DNA of 28,834 nt. Source: a virus. A model generated the notes under the pieces. That model had not been told where the DNA came from. It made no database searches and worked only from the letters and a program-made list of their open reading frames with translations. Of the stretch, positions 9,746 through 25,766 are shown piece by piece (position 1 is the stretch's first letter; each line of letters begins with the position of its first letter). The stretch is from positions 1 through 28,834 of IMG/VR virus record IMGVR_UViG_3300017740_000052; one strand, 5' to 3'. Made by a program: the position numbers and the translations under genes.

Positions 9746-9851
9746 AGAACTACTAAGTATTTGTTGTGGTACGTTACAAGTCGGAGACTATGATATTTGC
9801 GCATCGTGTGGTGAACATACAGATTTTGAATATGGTAGTGACGAAGACTAA
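9738..9851 (+). CDS. Small zinc-ribbon-like protein
   Basis: A 37-residue protein starting at ATG 9738, overlapping the previous stop by 8 bases. The Cys pattern SICCGTLQVGDYDICASCGE (CC then CxxC about 11 residues later), followed by an acidic tail EHTDFEYGSDED, resembles the tiny zinc-ribbon proteins that many phages carry. It overlaps the NinG-like gene by 20 bases. The role is unknown. Confidence 0.5.
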   Translation: MNEELLSICCGTLQVGDYDICASCGEHTDFEYGSDED

Positions 9852-10239
9852 AGCCAAGGCTAAACTTGACAAGGCGTTAAGCGACTACGTTAGGAAATCA
9901 AACGCAGATGATTTTGGTATAGCAAATTGTTTTACGTGTACAGCTAGAAAAAATTGGAAGCAATTAGATTGCGGACATTTTATAACACGATCTAAGATGA
10001 GTACAAGGTGGTTGTATAAGCCTGAAGAAGGTTTAGTTAATATGATGCCCCAGTGTAAACGTTGCAATATGACAGGAGGACAGCAGTACTTGTTTGCGAA
10101 GAGGTTAGACAAGATACACGGTGAAGGCACAGCAGATAAGATTCTACGCATGAGCAATGACATTACTAAATTTTCATTAGCAGAACTGCAAGAAATGACT
10201 GCTCACTACAATGACCTGTTTCGAAAACTTCCTAAATAA
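9832..10239 (+). CDS. ninG: NinG-like recombination protein
   Basis: A 135-residue protein of the NinG family (lambda NinG/Rap), which acts on branched recombination intermediates such as Holliday junctions. The N-terminal basic helix KTKAKAKLDKALSDYVRK is followed by zinc-binding residues CFTC (33 and 36), DCGHF (Cys47, His49) and QCKRCN (75 and 78), then NMTGGQQYLFAKRLDKIHGE, a strong family signature. The ATG at 9832 is chosen over an upstream in-frame GTG at 9766, because the added residues would overlap the zinc-ribbon gene and do not look like the family. It overlaps the sigma-like gene by 29 bases. Confidence 0.8.
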   Translation: MVVTKTKAKAKLDKALSDYVRKSNADDFGIANCFTCTARKNWKQLDCGHFITRSKMSTRWLYKPEEGLVNMMPQCKRCNMTGGQQYLFAKRLDKIHGEGTADKILRMSNDITKFSLAELQEMTAHYNDLFRKLPK

Positions 10240-10732
10240 AGAATACGATACGCTGCTTAGGTATGCAGTATATCTTGTAGGTGAAACTTGGTCAAAGGAT
10301 TTGCTTCATGATATGTCTATTACCTTGCTTGCTAGATCAGAGGCTCTTGAACCTTTGTGTCAACGGAAAGAAATGCTACCTTACATGAAACGAGCAATGA
10401 GAATTGCAAGCTATCATAAAGAAGGAAACTTTTTTAAACAGTACAGAGAGTACGAGAGAAGAAAAAAAAACGTGGACATTGAGCAGGTATTACTGAATGA
10501 CCATGAAATTATTGAATTAGAAAAACAACAACTAGGCACAGCCTACAAAATGCTTGAAGAAATTAACTGGTTCGACAGAGAGATATTCAAAGCATATTAT
10601 TTACATAGTCACACTTTAAACACATTTAGCGATGCCACAGGAATTAACAGACAAACAATCTACAGAAGCATTAGGAAAGCCCAAGCGCACCTCAAAGCCC
10701 AAGCGGAAGAAATCCAAAGGGTTAGGAGATGA
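10211..10732 (+). CDS. Sigma-70-like transcription factor
   Basis: This 173-residue protein has the two-part plan of small sigma factors. Residues 5-60 look like region 2 (FLNKEYDTLLRYAVYLVG, then KDLLHDMSITLL). Residues 118-162 look like region 4, with INWFDREIFKAYYLHSHTLN before a helix-turn-helix FSDATGINRQTIYRSIRKAQ. The middle is long and charged. Such proteins occur in phages of Bacteroidota and could turn on the terminase and structural genes that follow about 1.2 kb downstream. The start ATG at 10211 is inside the end of the NinG-like gene. Being a sigma factor rather than another HTH regulator is an inference. Confidence 0.65.
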   Translation: MTCFENFLNKEYDTLLRYAVYLVGETWSKDLLHDMSITLLARSEALEPLCQRKEMLPYMKRAMRIASYHKEGNFFKQYREYERRKKNVDIEQVLLNDHEIIELEKQQLGTAYKMLEEINWFDREIFKAYYLHSHTLNTFSDATGINRQTIYRSIRKAQAHLKAQAEEIQRVRR

Positions 10733-19630: not shown

Positions 19631-19794
19631 TGAAATACTGGATCAACGCCATAGGGTACGGCTTGCCTTTAGCTGTACGTTTAGCACAAGACGAAGAGCA
19701 AAAAGGTAAAAAGATGTGGATGCATTGGTACGGGAGACACGATTTAAAAGTTAGCGCGTTGAAGAAAATCAACTTAATACTGAAGAACAGATGA
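19630..19794 (+). CDS. Unknown 54-residue basic protein before the tape measure
   Basis: A short frame that starts at ATG 19630 in a TGATG overlap with the tail-tip gene and ends in an ATGA overlap with the tape measure gene. The product (MKYWINAIGYGLPLAVRLAQ, then KKMWMHWYGRHDLK and a basic helix) has a weakly hydrophobic first 20 residues and Trp-rich middle. Its tight coupling on both sides supports a real gene that might assist tail assembly. No family is recognised. Confidence 0.55.
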   Translation: MKYWINAIGYGLPLAVRLAQDEEQKGKKMWMHWYGRHDLKVSALKKINLILKNR

Positions 19795-21656
19795 GTAATG
19801 ACATGAACTTTAACCTGATCGGAGTCGATAAGGTTACACCTGCTGCTGAAAAAGCTACGCAATCATTAGATAATCTGAGTCAAAAAGCAGATCGTGCAGG
19901 TAAGCGAGTAGGGAAAACGGGTAGAACGGCAACAAAAGATTGGGCAGGGCTTGGTGATTTATTTTCAGGGCTATTACCTAGAGGTTTAAGTCGGACGCTA
20001 CGACAGTTTAAATCTACCCAACGATCAGTTTCACGATTAAGCAAAGGCTTTAAAGGATTAAAAAGTGCTATTGCTTCAACAGGAATTGGTTTACTTGTTG
20101 TCGCTTTGGGTGCAATCGTAGGATATTGGGATGACATATCAGCGGCAATCAACAGCGCGTCAGATGAAACAGACAAGCTAGTTGAGGAGAACAAAGAGTT
20201 AGTGCAAGCTGCAAAAGATCAGCTAGAAGCAATAAGTGCTACTGAGAATATTTTAAAATTGCAAGGAGCAACAGAAGAAGAAATCTTATCAATGCGCATG
20301 GCAGCTACAGATGAAGCTATAGCCGCGCAAAGAATCATGATTGACTCTTTAAAGCAGCAAAAGAAAGAACAAGCAGAAGCAGCACAAACAGCGAGCGATG
20401 TAGTAGCAGGTATTTTGACTTTAATTACAGCACCTATAGCAGCAGCCTTAGTAGCTATAGATGCAATAAGCGAAGGGCTAGTAAAGATTGGCGCATTAGA
20501 TGAAGCAACAAACTTAGCAGAAGGATTCTATTCAGGCATTGGTGATATGCTGTTTGATCCTGAAGGCATAGAAGAAGACGGTCAAAAGGCAATTGATGAA
20601 GCAGAAGAACAGCTTCAGCGTTTAGAAAATACACGAGCAGGCTATCAATTACGAGCCAATAAAAACGAGGAACAGGCAGAAGCAGCAGCGCAGAAGAAAC
20701 GAGATGATGCAGCTAGGAAGAGAGAGCAAGACGCGCAATTTGTAGCAGATCGGTTAGTCAAGATACAGGAAGAGATGTATTTGGCTATGATTGAGGATGA
20801 CATAATGCAGCAGAAGGAAAGGCGAAGGTTGCAGTATGAAGCAGATCAAGCAGAACTAAAAGCTAGGGGTGCAACATTTTCTCAGTTGCTAGTTTTAAAG
20901 CAACAGTATGATATGGATGTTGAGGCTTTAGACCAACAAGCACTTGACAGAAGGAATGCTAAAGAAAAAGAGCGACTAGATAAGGAGGCACAGCTTGCAG
21001 AAGAATTTCGACAGAAAGACTTAACAGATAAGCAGCTAGAAGAAGAAGCGGCATTTGCTGAATTTGAAAGACAGGAAGAGTTAGCAGGCACAAACGATGC
21101 GTTGCTGCTTGAAGCGTTTGAGGCTTACCAACTACAGAAAGATGCCATAGCTGAGAAATACAATCAAAAAGAGATTGATGAAAACCAAGAGGTAATAGAC
21201 CTTGAGATTCAAGGAAGGCAGGCACTAGCTAAAGGAGTAAGCGGTGTGTTTAAGCAAATGGGCAGGTTAGCAGAACAAAACAGCCAAGAGCAAAAGACAT
21301 TAGCTGTAGCAGACGTTTTGCTTAATCAAGCTATTGCAATGGCAAACGCAGTAAGAGGCGCATCAGAAACAGCCAAAGACCCTATTTCTTTAGGCGTGCT
21401 TATTACTACTATGGTTGGCGGTGTGCTTAGTAGCTTTGCAAGTATTAAGGGAATCCTAGATCAAGCAGGAACATCAGGCGGTAGCGTAGGTGGTGGTTCA
21501 ACTGGTCAAACGCGATCAGGCTTTAACACGCAAAGCACAGCACCTTTGCCTTCACGCTTAGAAACAGCAGGCAATGTACAGGCTTATGTAGTACAAAGTC
21601 AATTAGAAGGGCAGACAATACAATCAGAACAGTTAGCCGCTAAAACTACCCTTTAA
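19791..21656 (+). CDS. Tail tape measure protein
   Basis: A 621-residue protein, largely helical, with Ala, Gln, Glu and Lys-rich coiled coils (about 120-200 and 270-490). Hydrophobic segments lie at 98-113 (GIGLLVVALGAIVGYW), about 204-223 (VVAGILTLITAPIAAALVAI) and near 545-565 (LGVLITTMVGGVLSSFASIK). A Gly/Ser-rich stretch precedes the C-terminus. This is the standard tape measure design, which sets tail length and travels with the DNA. At about 0.15 nm per residue it predicts a tail near 93 nm, which fits a siphovirus. No lytic domain is visible. It is the last gene of the tail cluster. Confidence 0.85.
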   Translation: MSNDMNFNLIGVDKVTPAAEKATQSLDNLSQKADRAGKRVGKTGRTATKDWAGLGDLFSGLLPRGLSRTLRQFKSTQRSVSRLSKGFKGLKSAIASTGIGLLVVALGAIVGYWDDISAAINSASDETDKLVEENKELVQAAKDQLEAISATENILKLQGATEEEILSMRMAATDEAIAAQRIMIDSLKQQKKEQAEAAQTASDVVAGILTLITAPIAAALVAIDAISEGLVKIGALDEATNLAEGFYSGIGDMLFDPEGIEEDGQKAIDEAEEQLQRLENTRAGYQLRANKNEEQAEAAAQKKRDDAARKREQDAQFVADRLVKIQEEMYLAMIEDDIMQQKERRRLQYEADQAELKARGATFSQLLVLKQQYDMDVEALDQQALDRRNAKEKERLDKEAQLAEEFRQKDLTDKQLEEEAAFAEFERQEELAGTNDALLLEAFEAYQLQKDAIAEKYNQKEIDENQEVIDLEIQGRQALAKGVSGVFKQMGRLAEQNSQEQKTLAVADVLLNQAIAMANAVRGASETAKDPISLGVLITTMVGGVLSSFASIKGILDQAGTSGGSVGGGSTGQTRSGFNTQSTAPLPSRLETAGNVQAYVVQSQLEGQTIQSEQLAAKTTL

Positions 21657-21665
21657 TTTTACGGG

Positions 21666-21694
21666 TTGGTGTTACGCTTCTTTATATGTATATT
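21666..21694 (+). promoter_or_regulatory. Candidate promoter for the small-gene array
   Basis: TTGGTG at 21666-21671 and TATATT at 21689-21694 are 17 bp apart, a sigma-70-like arrangement (consensus TTGACA and TATAAT). It lies in the 57-base gap between the tape measure and the first small gene, where the leader would be about 13 bases. Bacteroidota promoters normally use TAnnTTTG, so it is a weak candidate that the phage sigma-like factor might use. Confidence 0.3.
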
Positions 21695-21713
21695 ATAGAC
21701 ATAGAACAAAGTC

Positions 21714-22007
21714 ATGAAAAAAACAGAACTATCTTATAACGGTTGGGCAAATCACGCAACATGGCTTGTTGCTGTTTGGGAATACATTGATTTAATTTCA
21801 GAAGGTTATTTTGAAGATGGTGATAAACCTGAAGATGTAAACGAGCGTGACGTAGAAGAAAGGTTTTATGATTATGTAGATGGTGAAATGCCTAACAACG
21901 GCATTATTTCTGACATGGTTAGTAACGCAACTTCAACGATTGATTGGAGAGAAATTACAGAACACGTTAAGGATCAGCTACAAGACAGGATTCTAGACAA
22001 CTTCTAA
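21714..22007 (+). CDS. Small acidic phage protein with YNGWxNHATW motif (DUF7249-like)
   Basis: A 97-residue protein with N-terminal LSYNGWANHATWLVAVWEYI. The motif YNGW-x-N-x-x-TW-x-V-x-x-W is widespread in phages in proteins of unknown function, recalled as DUF7249. The rest is very acidic: about 23 Asp/Glu against 8 Lys/Arg. It follows a 57-base gap with a candidate promoter and ends with a TAATG overlap with the next gene. It opens the array of small proteins between tail and head genes. Family assignment is from motif memory. Confidence 0.6.
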   Translation: MKKTELSYNGWANHATWLVAVWEYIDLISEGYFEDGDKPEDVNERDVEERFYDYVDGEMPNNGIISDMVSNATSTIDWREITEHVKDQLQDRILDNF

Positions 22008-22228
22008 TGAATATTCGTAGAGAACAAGATTTATTTGAAGACTACCTAGAATCGGTAGGCATGGAATATGACAGCGTATCAGGACTTACGCAGGTATTTA
22101 TGCGTTCAAATGATTACGATGTGTTCTTTACAGACAGGGGTATTGAGGTAGAAAGCTATGCACCTATGATGGGCAATGTAGAATTTATAAACGCTGATCA
22201 GTTGATTGATTGGTTTGAAGAACAATAG
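22007..22228 (+). CDS. Small acidic protein of the array
   Basis: A 73-residue acidic protein with a helix FEDYLESVGMEYDSV, then strands TQVFMRSNDYDVFFTDRGIE and a C-terminal helix NADQLIDWFEEQ. This alpha-beta pattern is compact and acidic. Its stop TAG lies inside a copy of the array linker sequence (ACAATAGAAAT) that precedes the next ATG. No function is recognised. Confidence 0.6.
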   Translation: MNIRREQDLFEDYLESVGMEYDSVSGLTQVFMRSNDYDVFFTDRGIEVESYAPMMGNVEFINADQLIDWFEEQ

Positions 22229-22232
22229 AAAT

Positions 22233-22514
22233 ATGAAGTATTTTCCACCTGCTATTATTGATGAGATTGCGGACAAAACAGATTGGAATGATCATAACGG
22301 TTCTGTTCTATTTCTTTTGATGTTTATGGACAAAGACGGAGTGCGAGGCTTAGATGGTTATATAGATGAGATTAAAGAAATTATAGAAATTCATCATGCC
22401 GCAAATTCTATGTCTACGGGATTAATTCGTCAACGTAGGCATTTAATGTTAGATGTTATGGACATTGTGTATGAGAACTACTCAAACGCAGATGAAGTGG
22501 CAATGGCTTTTTAA
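22233..22514 (+). CDS. Small acidic helical protein of the array
   Basis: A 93-residue protein starting at ATG 22233 (MKYFPPAIIDEIADKTDWND). A TTG further upstream is in frame but lies within the previous gene. The linker-like sequence ACAATAGAAAT directly before this ATG fixes the start. The product has helices SVLFLLMFMDKDGVRGLDGY and IRQRRHLMLDVMDIVYENY, and an acidic end. It is followed by the first standard 11-base linker. The function is unknown. Confidence 0.6.
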   Translation: MKYFPPAIIDEIADKTDWNDHNGSVLFLLMFMDKDGVRGLDGYIDEIKEIIEIHHAANSMSTGLIRQRRHLMLDVMDIVYENYSNADEVAMAF

Positions 22515-22525
22515 AAAACAGAGAT

Positions 22526-22711
22526 ATGGAAAATTACTTAGGACAATACATTGCTGACATTTTGCGCGATGCGTCAAGAGGAGTGTACAAAGACATTTAC
22601 AGCACAATGAACATTACTGATACTACTGATGAAATTTCAGAAGATTTTGTAGCAGCGATGGAAAATGAAATTGAAAATTTCGTTGACGATTACTTGTTGA
22701 ACCGATTCTAA
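22526..22711 (+). CDS. Small acidic protein of the array
   Basis: A 61-residue helical protein (MENYLGQYIADILRDASRGV, then TTDEISEDFVAAMENEIENF) with about 14 Asp/Glu against 4 Lys/Arg. It is bounded on both sides by the 11-base linker. It is amphipathic without a membrane segment. No family is recognised. Strong negative charge makes a DNA-mimic role possible but unproven. Confidence 0.6.
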   Translation: MENYLGQYIADILRDASRGVYKDIYSTMNITDTTDEISEDFVAAMENEIENFVDDYLLNRF

Positions 22712-22722
22712 ACAACAGAGAT

Positions 22723-22872
22723 ATGGAAAGAGAACTTTACAACCATCTTAGTGATGCTTTATCTGCCTTAGACCAAGGTATAGTTTCGGCACAAAACGCT
22801 GATAGACCTTTTATTGCAAATCTATTAGAAGATGCGTTTGACCTTGTAGACAAAGCCGAAAAGAGATTTTAA
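22723..22872 (+). CDS. Very small helical protein of the array (49 residues)
   Basis: Bounded exactly by 11-base linkers at 22712-22722 and 22873-22883, which is the main reason to call so short a gene. The product (MERELYNHLSDALSALDQGI, then NLLEDAFDLVDKAEKRF) looks like a two-helix hairpin. It resembles in length and pattern the 44-residue product at 23947, perhaps a distant duplicate. The function is unknown. Confidence 0.6.
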   Translation: MERELYNHLSDALSALDQGIVSAQNADRPFIANLLEDAFDLVDKAEKRF

Positions 22873-22883
22873 ACAATAGCTAT

Positions 22884-23705
22884 ATGTATAAATATTATTC
22901 AGCACTACAAGAAACTGATGGTTACCAAGTGTTACCACGTCCTTTGTATTTGCACAATGACAATGCAGGAGCAATTACTTTAGACATTAAACCGTTTCCT
23001 GAAAACTCGGTTATTACTTCTTTTGCTGCTACTAACACAAGTGTAGTCAGTTTATTTCCAGCATTTAGCCCACAATTGAAACAAGCACAAGTTGCTACGC
23101 AGTATACAGCGACTACAATTTCAGGTATAGGAAAGGGAGCAAAAATAACTACTACAGTGACTGAAACGCAGAATGGAAAGATCGCGACATTTCCAAGCAC
23201 CATGTCATTTACAGGTAATAATGTTGGTGCTGATCTAGCAGAATACACACCAACAACAGACGGAAGCGGTACTGGATTTGTAGTGCGTTTTTCTAATTCT
23301 GGTACTCCTCCATTTGCTCCACAGAATGTAAATATTATTTCGCAAGGCACAGGATACGAAGTTGGTGATGAACTAACATTTGTAGTTGGTGGTGAAACAA
23401 TTGTTGGAACACTAGTCACTGCAAACATTGGCTTAGGCTTTTTAGTTACAGCAGCAACGTCTTCTGCAATTGGTGACAATTATGCGGCTGGAGATATAAT
23501 TGAAATCACATTGGCAGAAACATTTGACACAGTAGAATATACTTATCCTATACGTTTAACTATTACAAATGACGTGCTAAAGGATGCAGGCGCAGTTCCA
23601 TTAAAATTAAATGCAGGTGAAACATCTGTAGTGCCTGCTCTTGAATTTGAGGTACAAGGAGCGGCAGACAAATCCGTTCTTGCCTTACTTGCAGAACCGA
23701 TTTAA
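22884..23705 (+). CDS. Putative beta-rich virion or decoration protein inside the array
   Basis: A 273-residue protein that is quite unlike its small neighbours. It has a beta-rich, Thr/Val/Gly/Asn composition. Two segments of the G-x-G-Y-x-x-GD type occur: SQGTGYEVGDELTFVVGGET and IGDNYAAGDIIEITLAE, a pattern found in phage fibre and decoration domains. The N-terminal part (PLYLHNDNAGAITLDIKPFP) suggests a compact beta domain. It starts after linker ACAATAGCTAT and ends before linker ACAGCATTGAT, the two most divergent copies. Its place before the capsid genes makes a head decoration or head fibre possible. It is not recognised at family level. Confidence 0.5.
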   Translation: MYKYYSALQETDGYQVLPRPLYLHNDNAGAITLDIKPFPENSVITSFAATNTSVVSLFPAFSPQLKQAQVATQYTATTISGIGKGAKITTTVTETQNGKIATFPSTMSFTGNNVGADLAEYTPTTDGSGTGFVVRFSNSGTPPFAPQNVNIISQGTGYEVGDELTFVVGGETIVGTLVTANIGLGFLVTAATSSAIGDNYAAGDIIEITLAETFDTVEYTYPIRLTITNDVLKDAGAVPLKLNAGETSVVPALEFEVQGAADKSVLALLAEPI

Positions 23706-23716
23706 ACAGCATTGAT

Positions 23717-23935
23717 ATGAGAGGTGAAAGTAACGCAGATTACGAACTGAATCTAATTAAAAAACAAGCACAAGATTTAACGTCTACGCTTGAAGTTTTA
23801 TTGGAATACTTCTATACTGAAGTTGATAGAGGAGCAGGATATGAAGCTGAACAAGCAGCGGAAGGCATAGAAGAATTAATTGAACAGACTGAAGGCATAC
23901 ACGAGCAAGCCCGATTTTATTACCGTTCATTTTAA
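23717..23935 (+). CDS. Small acidic helical protein of the array
   Basis: A 72-residue protein with a continuous helical pattern (NADYELNLIKKQAQDLTSTL, then LLEYFYTEVDRG and AEQAAEGIEELIEQTEGI). It is acidic, with aromatic residues at the C-terminus (ARFYYRSF). It is bounded by linkers of the array. No family is recognised. Confidence 0.6.
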   Translation: MRGESNADYELNLIKKQAQDLTSTLEVLLEYFYTEVDRGAGYEAEQAAEGIEELIEQTEGIHEQARFYYRSF

Positions 23936-23946
23936 ACAACAGAGAT

Positions 23947-24081
23947 ATGAATAGTCAAGAAATAGATACCCTACATGAGTTGCTGATGGATTTTCAGAAT
24001 ACTGTACTTGAAGGATCAATGGGCAGTGCTGAAGACCGTGCGATTAGTGTGGCAATTTCCATAATCGAAGAATATTTGTAA
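23947..24081 (+). CDS. Very small helical protein of the array (44 residues)
   Basis: The frame starts at ATG 23947 after the exact consensus linker and ends at TAA 24079-24081, followed by the next linker. The product (MNSQEIDTLHELLMDFQNTV, then SAEDRAISVAISIIEEYL) is acidic and helical, like the 49-residue product at 22723. The linker at both ends is the main evidence that it is a gene. Confidence 0.6.
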   Translation: MNSQEIDTLHELLMDFQNTVLEGSMGSAEDRAISVAISIIEEYL

Positions 24082-24092
24082 ACAACATAGAT

Positions 24093-24332
24093 ATGCAAGT
24101 AACACAAAGAGAATTAGATGTTTTTATTGACGAAGTAGAGCGTCTAGGTTATAGCGTTAGGTACGCAGGTATTAATGGTTTTGGAAACGGTGAAGCAACC
24201 ATTGACAGAAACGGTGCAGGCGATCCTATGGAATGGGAGTATGACATTAAAGACATTGTGTGGGACATGGGATTCCGAGATTATGACATAACAAGTTATA
24301 CTCAAGAAACTATCGTGATCACCTTGTTCTAA
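24093..24332 (+). CDS. Small acidic alpha-beta protein of the array
   Basis: A 79-residue protein with an opening helix (QRELDVFIDEVERLGYSVRY), strands YAGINGFGNGEATIDRNG, and EYDIKDIVWDMGFRDYDI. It ends in TIVITLF, a beta strand. The helix-strand layout resembles the 81-residue product at 24592, although identity is low. It is bounded by linkers. The function is unknown. Confidence 0.6.
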   Translation: MQVTQRELDVFIDEVERLGYSVRYAGINGFGNGEATIDRNGAGDPMEWEYDIKDIVWDMGFRDYDITSYTQETIVITLF

Positions 24333-24343
24333 ACAACATAGAT

Positions 24344-24580
24344 ATGGCATACACTACACAAGACTTTTTAGATGATTACGATGTTAGGACGCAAGACATT
24401 CCTTTTGAACGTGATCGTGGAGGAATTTCAATGGAGTACGAAGTAATTATTTATAATGATTGCACAGGAAGAGAATTGGTCGGTAATGTATGGGCAGAGA
24501 GTTATGATTTTTTACGTGACGATTTGCTTGAAATCATGTCTGATTGTGAGGCAATTGAAAACATTGCGTTAATAGTATAA
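24344..24580 (+). CDS. Small acidic protein of the array with two Cys
   Basis: A 78-residue protein with about 19 Asp/Glu against 5 Arg. Sequence features are an acidic start (TTQDFLDDYDVRTQDIPFER), a beta pair MEYEVIIYNDCTGRELVGNV, and a helix FLRDDLLEIMSDCEAIENI. It is bounded by linkers ACAACATAGAT and ACAACAGGGAT. No family is recognised. Confidence 0.6.
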   Translation: MAYTTQDFLDDYDVRTQDIPFERDRGGISMEYEVIIYNDCTGRELVGNVWAESYDFLRDDLLEIMSDCEAIENIALIV

Positions 24581-24591
24581 ACAACAGGGAT

Positions 24592-24837
24592 ATGCTTATA
24601 TCAATCAAAGGTTTATCGTTTGACGAAGTACATGACTACCTAGACTCACGAGGTGCAGGCGAAGGTGATCTAGATATTTACATAGATGACTACGGTTATG
24701 CAGATGCAGATAGTGGTGATATGCGAAGAATGGTTGAGGTAACAGGTAATCTAGATTTCGACGAAGAAGACTTTCTATTTGAAGTTATGGATGACTTGGA
24801 AAATCAAGAGCCAGACGCAGAAATTACTTACCTATAA
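24592..24837 (+). CDS. Highly acidic small protein of the array
   Basis: An 81-residue protein with about 25 Asp/Glu and only 4 Lys/Arg, a net charge near -21. It runs MLISIKGLSFDEVHDYLDSR, then DLDIYIDDYGYADADSGD and DFDEEDFLFEVMDDLENQE. Such extreme negative charge with aromatic residues is a feature of DNA-mimic proteins, including some anti-restriction proteins. It is the last small gene and is followed by the consensus linker before the protease gene. DNA mimicry is a hypothesis based on charge only. Confidence 0.6.
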   Translation: MLISIKGLSFDEVHDYLDSRGAGEGDLDIYIDDYGYADADSGDMRRMVEVTGNLDFDEEDFLFEVMDDLENQEPDAEITYL

Positions 24838-24848
24838 ACAACAGAGAT

Positions 24849-25766
24849 ATGGAGCGTAAACTTGTTGAACTACTTATTGAAGAAGATTCTACTGCATGGG
24901 GAGTAGAGGCAATTAGCCTTGTAAAGTTTCCTGCGATCGAAGAGAATTTCGTTTTCTTTAGCAAGGACGGCAACACACGCGCCATGAGTTTAGCTGCTGT
25001 AGACGAAGACCAACGTACAGTAGTAGGTGCGGCTTTAATTCCTGACAAACACATACCTAGGATTGACGAAAATACGGATGAAGAATACGATGTGTACTTC
25101 AGCAAGGAAACAGTCAAATTAGCTAGTGAGTTATTTCTAAAGCAAAACCGCACAAACGATCACACAAAGGAGCATCTCGAAAAAGTAGATGATGTAAGCG
25201 TAGTAGAGAGTTGGATAGTAGAAGACCCTGAACTTGACAAAAGCAAGGTTTACGGTTTTGCAGTACCTGAAGGAACATGGATGGTAAAGCTACAGGTTGC
25301 TAACGATGAAGTGTGGACTGAGATTAAGGAAGGCAAACTTCGTGGTTTAAGTATTGAAGGTTACTTTTCAGATAAAGTAGAAGAAATGAGTCAGTCGCTA
25401 TCTATGAAGAAAGTATTTAAAAAGTTGTGGTTTGCTGTTAAGCGCAAATTTTATCAGGAAGTAACCCTATCACAAGGCTTTACTATTGCTACTGAAGACG
25501 AGAATATGACAGCAGGCAGCACAGTATTTAAGATTGATGATGAAGGATTGCCTACCGAATTAGAAAACGGAAAGTACACAACTGAAGCAGGTTTGGAGTT
25601 AGAGGTGTACGAAGGTGTTTTAACTGAATACAACGGTGAAGTAAAAGCAGTTGAAGATCAGGTAGAGGAAGAGAACGTAGAGATGGACAAAGTAGAATTG
25701 AACCAAAGAAAGGTGAAGTTCTATACAGCGTACTTAAAGCGTAAATACTACAACACCTACGGATGA
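24849..25766 (+). CDS. Prohead serine protease (XkdF-like)
   Basis: A 305-residue protein of the PBSX XkdF type, a protease that trims scaffold and capsid proteins in the prohead. The N-terminal part has TAWGVEAISLVKFPAIEENF. Next come VVGAALIPDKHIPR and the catalytic-type His in NDHTKEH (His105 or His109), ESWIVEDPELDKSK, and the nucleophile region RGLSIEGYFS (Ser168). These are the usual XkdF blocks. The C-terminal 100 residues, with an acidic stretch and a basic end (LKRKYYNTYG), may act as a scaffold fusion. It starts after the consensus 11-base linker and ends with an ATGA overlap. Confidence 0.8.
   Translation: MERKLVELLIEEDSTAWGVEAISLVKFPAIEENFVFFSKDGNTRAMSLAAVDEDQRTVVGAALIPDKHIPRIDENTDEEYDVYFSKETVKLASELFLKQNRTNDHTKEHLEKVDDVSVVESWIVEDPELDKSKVYGFAVPEGTWMVKLQVANDEVWTEIKEGKLRGLSIEGYFSDKVEEMSQSLSMKKVFKKLWFAVKRKFYQEVTLSQGFTIATEDENMTAGSTVFKIDDEGLPTELENGKYTTEAGLELEVYEGVLTEYNGEVKAVEDQVEEENVEMDKVELNQRKVKFYTAYLKRKYYNTYG

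Follow-up and report, generated by a model that had tools for sequence, protein, structure and literature searches.

Layout of the cassette array

Our analysis concerns a virus contig of 28,834 bases, the IMG/VR record IMGVR_UViG_3300017740_000052 (the window, labelled W in comparisons with relatives, which are IMG/VR contigs carrying labels such as G002 or L381), and within it a row of 11 mostly small genes located between the tape-measure gene (19791–21656) and the gene of an XkdF-type head protease (24849–25766). From position 22222 onward, a near-uniform 11-base linker occupies every junction of this row. Nine consecutive junctions of the form TAA-N11-ATG span 22512–24851, and a degenerate tenth copy is found at 22222; these positions and sequences, first pointed out in the initial annotation of the stretch, were confirmed. 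The linker consensus is ACAACAGAGAT, from which seven of the nine copies deviate by 0–1 base and the other two by 3. The annotation had also stated that junctions elsewhere are only ATGA or TAATG overlaps. This did not hold, as gaps in the window run from overlaps to +165, none of them having the linker form.

All array features lie on the plus strand, and the TAA of each joint begins at the first coordinate given. The first array gene (21714–22007; 97 amino acids (aa)) is DUF7249-like, with a match just below the Pfam cut-off, and is joined by a TAATG overlap to the second (22007–22228; 73 aa), the TAG stop of which is contained in the tenth linker copy (22222–22235, ACAATAGAAAT-ATG). A cassette gene of 93 aa (22233–22514) then leads into joint 1 (22512–22528, TAA-AAAACAGAGAT-ATG). 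Two acidic cassettes follow, of 61 aa (22526–22711) and 49 aa (22723–22872), which end in joint 2 (22709–22725, the consensus TAA-ACAACAGAGAT-ATG) and joint 3 (22870–22886, TAA-ACAATAGCTAT-ATG), respectively. Next is a long cassette of 273 aa (22884–23705), present in relatives too, with joint 4 (23703–23719, TAA-ACAGCATTGAT-ATG) at its end. The cassettes that remain are all acidic: 72 aa (23717–23935), 44 aa (23947–24081), 79 aa (24093–24332), 78 aa (24344–24580) and 81 aa with a net charge of -21 (24592–24837). They are separated by joint 5 (23933–23949, consensus), joints 6 (24079–24095) and 7 (24330–24346), both TAA-ACAACATAGAT-ATG, and joint 8 (24578–24594, TAA-ACAACAGGGAT-ATG). Joint 9 (24835–24851), again with the consensus linker, stands in front of the core gene that follows the array, the XkdF-type head maturation protease (Peptidase_S78_2; Pfam, E = 2.8e-17). 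Two relatives of this 305-aa protease, in L144 (9992–11326; 444 aa) and L137 (9992–11014; 341 aa), have in-frame additions after the S78_2 domain, without Pfam match.

With up to three mismatches allowed, the window contains 13 linker matches versus 4.4 expected, a number reached in none of 100 shuffles, and all ten array copies sit at gene starts. A blind search for 11-mers common to gene starts returned 8 genes in the window and 2 once the array had been removed; a cultured Cellulophaga phage yielded no more than 4. Taken together, the shuffle test and the blind search rule out chance or low complexity. A Shine-Dalgarno (SD) explanation was also rejected, since the sole SD-like triplet (GAG, -5 to -3) is too near the ATG and is missing from the other linker types described below. 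Searches for an RNA family, a tRNA or a hairpin element as the identity of the linker found none.

Recurrence, shuffling and linker dialects in related phages

When related phages were searched for the linker and their gene content was compared, as the initial annotation had suggested, linker arrays were found to recur with shuffled cassettes. The exact 17-mer TAAACAACAGAGATATG occurs in 66 IMG/VR stretches, with at least two copies present in about 34 contigs; single linker matches in large contigs are mostly chance and were ignored, and multi-copy contigs alone were used. Where flanking genes are present, these contigs encode the same tape-measure, protease and/or capsid, the array being placed in either the tape-measure–protease or the protease–capsid interval. 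The motif is confined to the coding strand in 24 of the closest records. Recurrence in relatives and in unrelated families rules out a linker peculiar to one genome, and tandem duplication. Three linker types, which we term dialects, are found at this locus: D1, that of the window, and, in relatives, D2 (TAAAACAACTTAAAGATG), the junctions of which have a gap of 12 nucleotides (nt), and D3 (TAAACCACAACGATATG).

Copies were collected without requiring ATG or TAA; 181 of 200 non-redundant ones are nonetheless followed directly by ATG and 171 of 200 are preceded by TAA, while a single copy is reversed. Several of those lacking a direct ATG are junctions with the ATG two bases earlier (GAG-ATG). 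The conserved block of 198 non-redundant D1 copies extends from -14 to +3 with flanks near background. These copies were selected on -11 to -1, and the TAA, which lies outside the selection, is still 86, 92 and 98% conserved at its three positions. The gap measures 11 nt in 159 of 190 D1 cassettes.

The group is marine and probably consists of phages of Flavobacteriia: the best matches of the terminase include Bacteroidota phages, the tape-measure points to Cellulophaga phages and the capsid to Nonlabens phages. A prophage search of genome contigs for the host returned no relative. Among named phages, neither the window DNA nor the two array proteins that were searched gave a match, and the repeated linker was not found in the more distant protease relatives (L145–L208).

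Comparison of array gene orders revealed the same families in different neighbourhoods. Among D1 cassette pairs of at least 80% nucleotide identity (n = 81), the neighbours mostly differ, in 77 of 80 cases on the 5′ side and in 72 of 79 on the 3′ side; exact cassette-plus-context duplicates had been removed beforehand, which raises these fractions and leaves the position of the drop in identity unaffected. Identity is ~0.9 within the cassette, mostly 0.75–1.0 per base across the linker and ~0.3 (about 0.28) outside, and it falls at the first base outside TAA...ATG on both sides. At the level of nucleotide alignments, these data show shuffling exactly at the joint, with single-base boundaries. 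The cassette idea put forward in the initial annotation is thus strongly supported, as relatives hold the same genes in other orders and identity stops at the linker.

Individual pairs illustrate the process. G017 and G023 have two genes in common (98.8 and 97.4% identical) that lie side by side in G023, whereas in G017 they are four cassettes apart; the joint is perfect each time. The flanks of G003 and G004 are 98–99% identical, and the cassettes between them differ. In each of these two near-identical pairs the difference is a clean replacement or deletion of cassettes between joints. The gene that ends in the tenth copy is common to the window and G021/G021b (96% nucleotide identity), and the genes after it are unrelated. 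In three genomes the 273-aa gene is followed by the variant ACAGCATTGAT (23703–23719; one of the three has ACAGCATTGCT) although the genes downstream differ, and some linker variants therefore travel with the upstream cassette. The 273-aa gene itself (22884–23705) has no family match and occurs in six of the compared arrays, usually mid-array.

All 243 complete cassette genes, representing 113 of 113 families, encode net-negative proteins with a median charge of -12, and the array genes of the window are far more acidic than its other short genes (p about 5e-5). No similarity is detectable between the 113 families. A convincing Pfam match was obtained for one of them (DUF3846) and PHROGs matches for four, each without a named function. 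Two cassette proteins were modelled, and both are small alpha+beta folds: the 79-aa protein has the predicted order helix-strand-strand-helix-strand-strand (predicted local distance difference test (pLDDT) score of 90) and the 81-aa protein strand-helix-strand-strand-helix-strand (pLDDT 91). A fold search with one model returned only loose ferredoxin-like or PII-like matches, none at E ≤ 0.001, and the other gave no useful match. The uniform acidity, the nearly always small size and the two alpha+beta folds could point to tandem duplication of one gene together with its linker, followed by rapid divergence. Given 113 mutually dissimilar families, and models that differ in the order of their elements, we find such paralogous amplification extremely improbable. 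From their acidity, size and turnover, one might guess that the cassette proteins have an accessory role, or one in counter-defence or host takeover.

Dialects are never mixed within a locus (0 of 162). The 268 unique cassettes form 115 families, one of which is the head protease, and in the 20 families that occur with more than one dialect the linker follows the array and not the gene. Most copies in L381 carry a sub-dialect, CCAACAGAGAT (starting with CCAACAGAGA; one copy has a further change), the gene families it precedes being found with ACAACAGAGAT elsewhere. On the capsid tree the dialect needs at least five changes, and D1 is present on both sides of the deepest split; whole arrays therefore change dialect. 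This uniformity points to homogenisation or wholesale replacement, and away from independent selection for each gene. The conserved feature is the sameness within an array combined with the stop-leader-start form. The earlier claim that the exact sequence matters was corrected, because the same gene families in relatives use two other linkers, uniform per genome. Relatives with the same genes behind unrelated spacers had been named as an observation that would speak against the proposal; the two other linkers come close to this, but the spacers are not arbitrary. Additional rows of small genes follow the protease in the D2 phages L138 (11077–11515), L139 (4767–6356), L320, L332 and L338, with recurring upstream sequences of their own such as TACGGAAATTAAA and TAATAAAAAGAAT, possibly further dialects.

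Proposed leader and exchange functions of the joint

In five related loci, the first linker copy has no stop codon and lies directly behind the promoter box TATATTTG (at -25/-24). A TAnnTTTG box is located at -12 to -5 of the transcription start site (TSS) in Flavobacterium psychrophilum (PMC9723704). With the box spacing taken from that species, the TSS is predicted at the start of AAACAACAGAGAT and the transcript would read AAACAACAGAGAU-AUG, so that the predicted mRNA leader in these loci is the linker itself. The T of TAA is replaced in the promoter-linked first copies, as expected if this T is elsewhere kept only as part of a stop. Among copies without TAA, the box is found only upstream of first copies (5 loci), and across the full set of copies the positions upstream of -16 show near-background conservation. 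A different conserved non-coding stretch is present in the window and its closest relatives, running from the tape-measure gene to the first array gene (21657–21713, plus strand) and likely to be the array promoter. It is near-identical in W, G002, G003, G004 and G021b, is kept although G002 has a different first gene behind it, and contains TATATTAT, a weak match to the TAnnTTTG box. The region 10211–10732 of the window weakly matches a family of RNA polymerase sigma factors (phrog_1740, E = 0.0066), and a phage sigma factor might control the array.

The linkers of all three dialects (ACAACAGAGAT, AACAACTTAAAG and ACCACAACGAT) are A-rich and unstructured, folding to 0 kcal/mol. Initiation in Flavobacterium takes place in an A-rich, Kozak-like, SD-less context with A favoured at -3, -6, -12 and -13 (PMC6847099), and the D1 linker has the preferred A at -6 (99%) as well as at -12 and -13. 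The proposal in the initial annotation of a translation element fits these features, in that copies behind a promoter make up the whole predicted leader, ATG follows nearly all copies and the linker is unstructured.

The fixed ATG and TAA at its ends, the promoter-like boxes ahead of the leader and the end of conservation at the ATG might be explained by translation alone, with the linker as a strong SD-less initiation or termination-reinitiation signal and with illegitimate shuffling from which only products with an intact leader survive. We regard this as unlikely, since close relatives would be using three leaders for one task without ever mixing them in a genome, the L381 sub-dialect has spread before families having ACAACAGAGAT elsewhere, and independent selection does not easily yield such uniformity. 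Were the joint only a short homology, kept or homogenised through exchange and with no special role on the mRNA, then breakpoints that are single-base-sharp at both ends, one dialect per genome and the change of whole arrays to another dialect on the capsid tree would all be accounted for. This appears quite unlikely to us: the T of TAA is lost exactly where a stop is unneeded, behind the promoter, which argues that parts of the motif follow the needs of gene expression, and the linker is A-rich and unstructured in every dialect. Uniformity within genomes and dialect change between them would also be expected from co-evolution with one factor per dialect, an RNA-binding protein or small RNA of phage or host origin that controls the array as a translational regulon, and archaeal viruses do have conserved regulatory sequences before shuffling early genes (PMC11065993). 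Opposite-strand counts, however, revealed no complementary sequence at up to two mismatches in the phage records, and we judge the site of such a trans-acting regulator to be very unlikely.

We consider it probable that the two roles coincide, and that TAAACAACAGAGATATG is a self-contained joint of stop, 11-nt unstructured leader and start, which would act as an SD-less translation leader and, in an accessory cassette array, double as the recombination joint. The joint would separate interchangeable small-gene cassettes in an accessory operon beside the tape-measure, head-protease and capsid genes. On the mRNA, each cistron would have the linker as its initiation leader, the host being one that initiates without SD pairing, and in some relatives the first cistron would take the same leader directly behind the promoter. 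On the DNA, it would offer uniform homology for the gain, loss or replacement of whole cassettes in phage–phage recombination, and because exchange would occur at a uniform joint, any product would keep correct stops and starts. The translation function, homologous recombination as the route of exchange, and a role of the cassette proteins are what we infer. Lambdoid mosaicism is driven by phage recombinases that tolerate short or diverged homology, plus the accessory Rap (NinG) protein (PMC3945230). A relative of the NinG/Rap DNA junction endonuclease is encoded in the window at 9766–10239 on the plus strand (phrog_5034, E = 2.5e-17; PF05766, 6e-6), and this candidate helper perhaps assists in cassette exchange.

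Several points have to be taken into account that weigh against this dual role. For homologous recombination, 14–17 bp is a short stretch, and the window contains no recognised annealing recombinase. Cross-dialect cassettes are just 57–82% identical, and recent exchange between dialects is therefore not seen. As to translation, the five promoter-linked first copies represent just two promoter sequences, and the position behind a promoter is in itself no proof, since recombination would likewise need a first copy as one of its ends. Predicted pairing of the linker is barely below that of its own shuffles (0.393 vs 0.420). Finally, position -3 is G in 96% of D1 copies and also G in D3, compared with the A preferred in Flavobacterium.

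Significance and relation to known systems

The array represents a clear sequence-level case of interchangeable phage genes with base-precise joints, and bears on how mosaicism keeps genes expressible. Its linker can be used to search for an accessory gene pool (here 113 families, almost none of them in Pfam or PHROGs), which is a natural place to seek counter-defence genes against Bacteroidota. The linkers would also be ready-made leaders for SD-less hosts, the three dialects providing a natural test of what such ribosomes need.

We found no published description of this element in the open-access literature. The initial annotation knew of no named system of this form, but an analogue exists in the Start-Associated Sequences (SAS) of Cluster K mycobacteriophages (PMC3203893; also PMC11373665, PMC12699233), short asymmetric repeats just before the start codon of 11–19 genes per phage. 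They have one orientation and precede unrelated gene families; a role in translation initiation has been proposed, while their function is not established (PMC3203893). The array linker is likewise asymmetric and directly upstream of starts, with 200 forward copies versus 1 reverse, 181 direct ATG codons and 115 families. The SAS GGGATAGGAGCCC, however, contains the SD core AGGAG, which is absent from ACAACAGAGAT, AACAACTTAAAG and ACCACAACGAT. SAS lie in the non-structural half of the genome, 3–7 bp from the start, in gaps mostly above 50 bp, whereas the linker is the entire 11-nt gap, and half of the SAS have an inverted repeat or promoter (ESAS). Unlike SAS, the array joint takes in the previous stop and serves as the joint of a shuffled cassette array.

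In archaeal viruses a TATA/BRE promoter consensus precedes single anti-defence or early genes (PMC11065993). The likeness is that of one conserved sequence before many fast-evolving small genes of unknown function; there it is a promoter before single genes, in the phage array a leader between cistrons. The initiation context of Flavobacterium differs in being a general statistical preference, whereas the phage linker is a fixed repeat.

The promoter-early stem-loop (PeSL) cassettes of T4-type phages (Arbiol 2010 and Comeau 2014, as cited in PMC4503421) resemble the array, as far as the citing account describes them, in a repeated intergenic element tied to the shuffling of small accessory phage genes. 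PeSL as presented there combine an early promoter with a stem-loop terminator, while the array linker has neither a stem-loop nor a promoter of its own and its cistrons stay in one operon.

Integron arrays consist of tandem promoterless cassettes with a recurring joining sequence, served by one upstream promoter and freely shuffled in order. The phage cassettes are similarly joined by a recurrent sequence and freely reordered. The attC sites of integrons are inverted repeats, whereas the phage joint is a 17-bp, unstructured and non-palindromic sequence, and no tyrosine integrase was found in the window proteins scanned with Pfam, a scan that did not include all structural genes of a contig that may be incomplete. 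We tentatively raise the possibility of an integron-like phage cassette system without integrase or att sites, in which the 17-bp joint is both translation signal and exchange homology, dialects spread genome-wide and define exchange groups, and a large pool of small acidic proteins forms the cargo, plausibly for counter-defence or host takeover. If this is true, shuffling would always yield expressible genes.

Since at least one defining feature each of SAS, PeSL and integrons was looked for and found to be absent, we place the element in none of these classes. The nearest known kinds are SAS by position, PeSL by evolutionary behaviour and integron arrays by layout.

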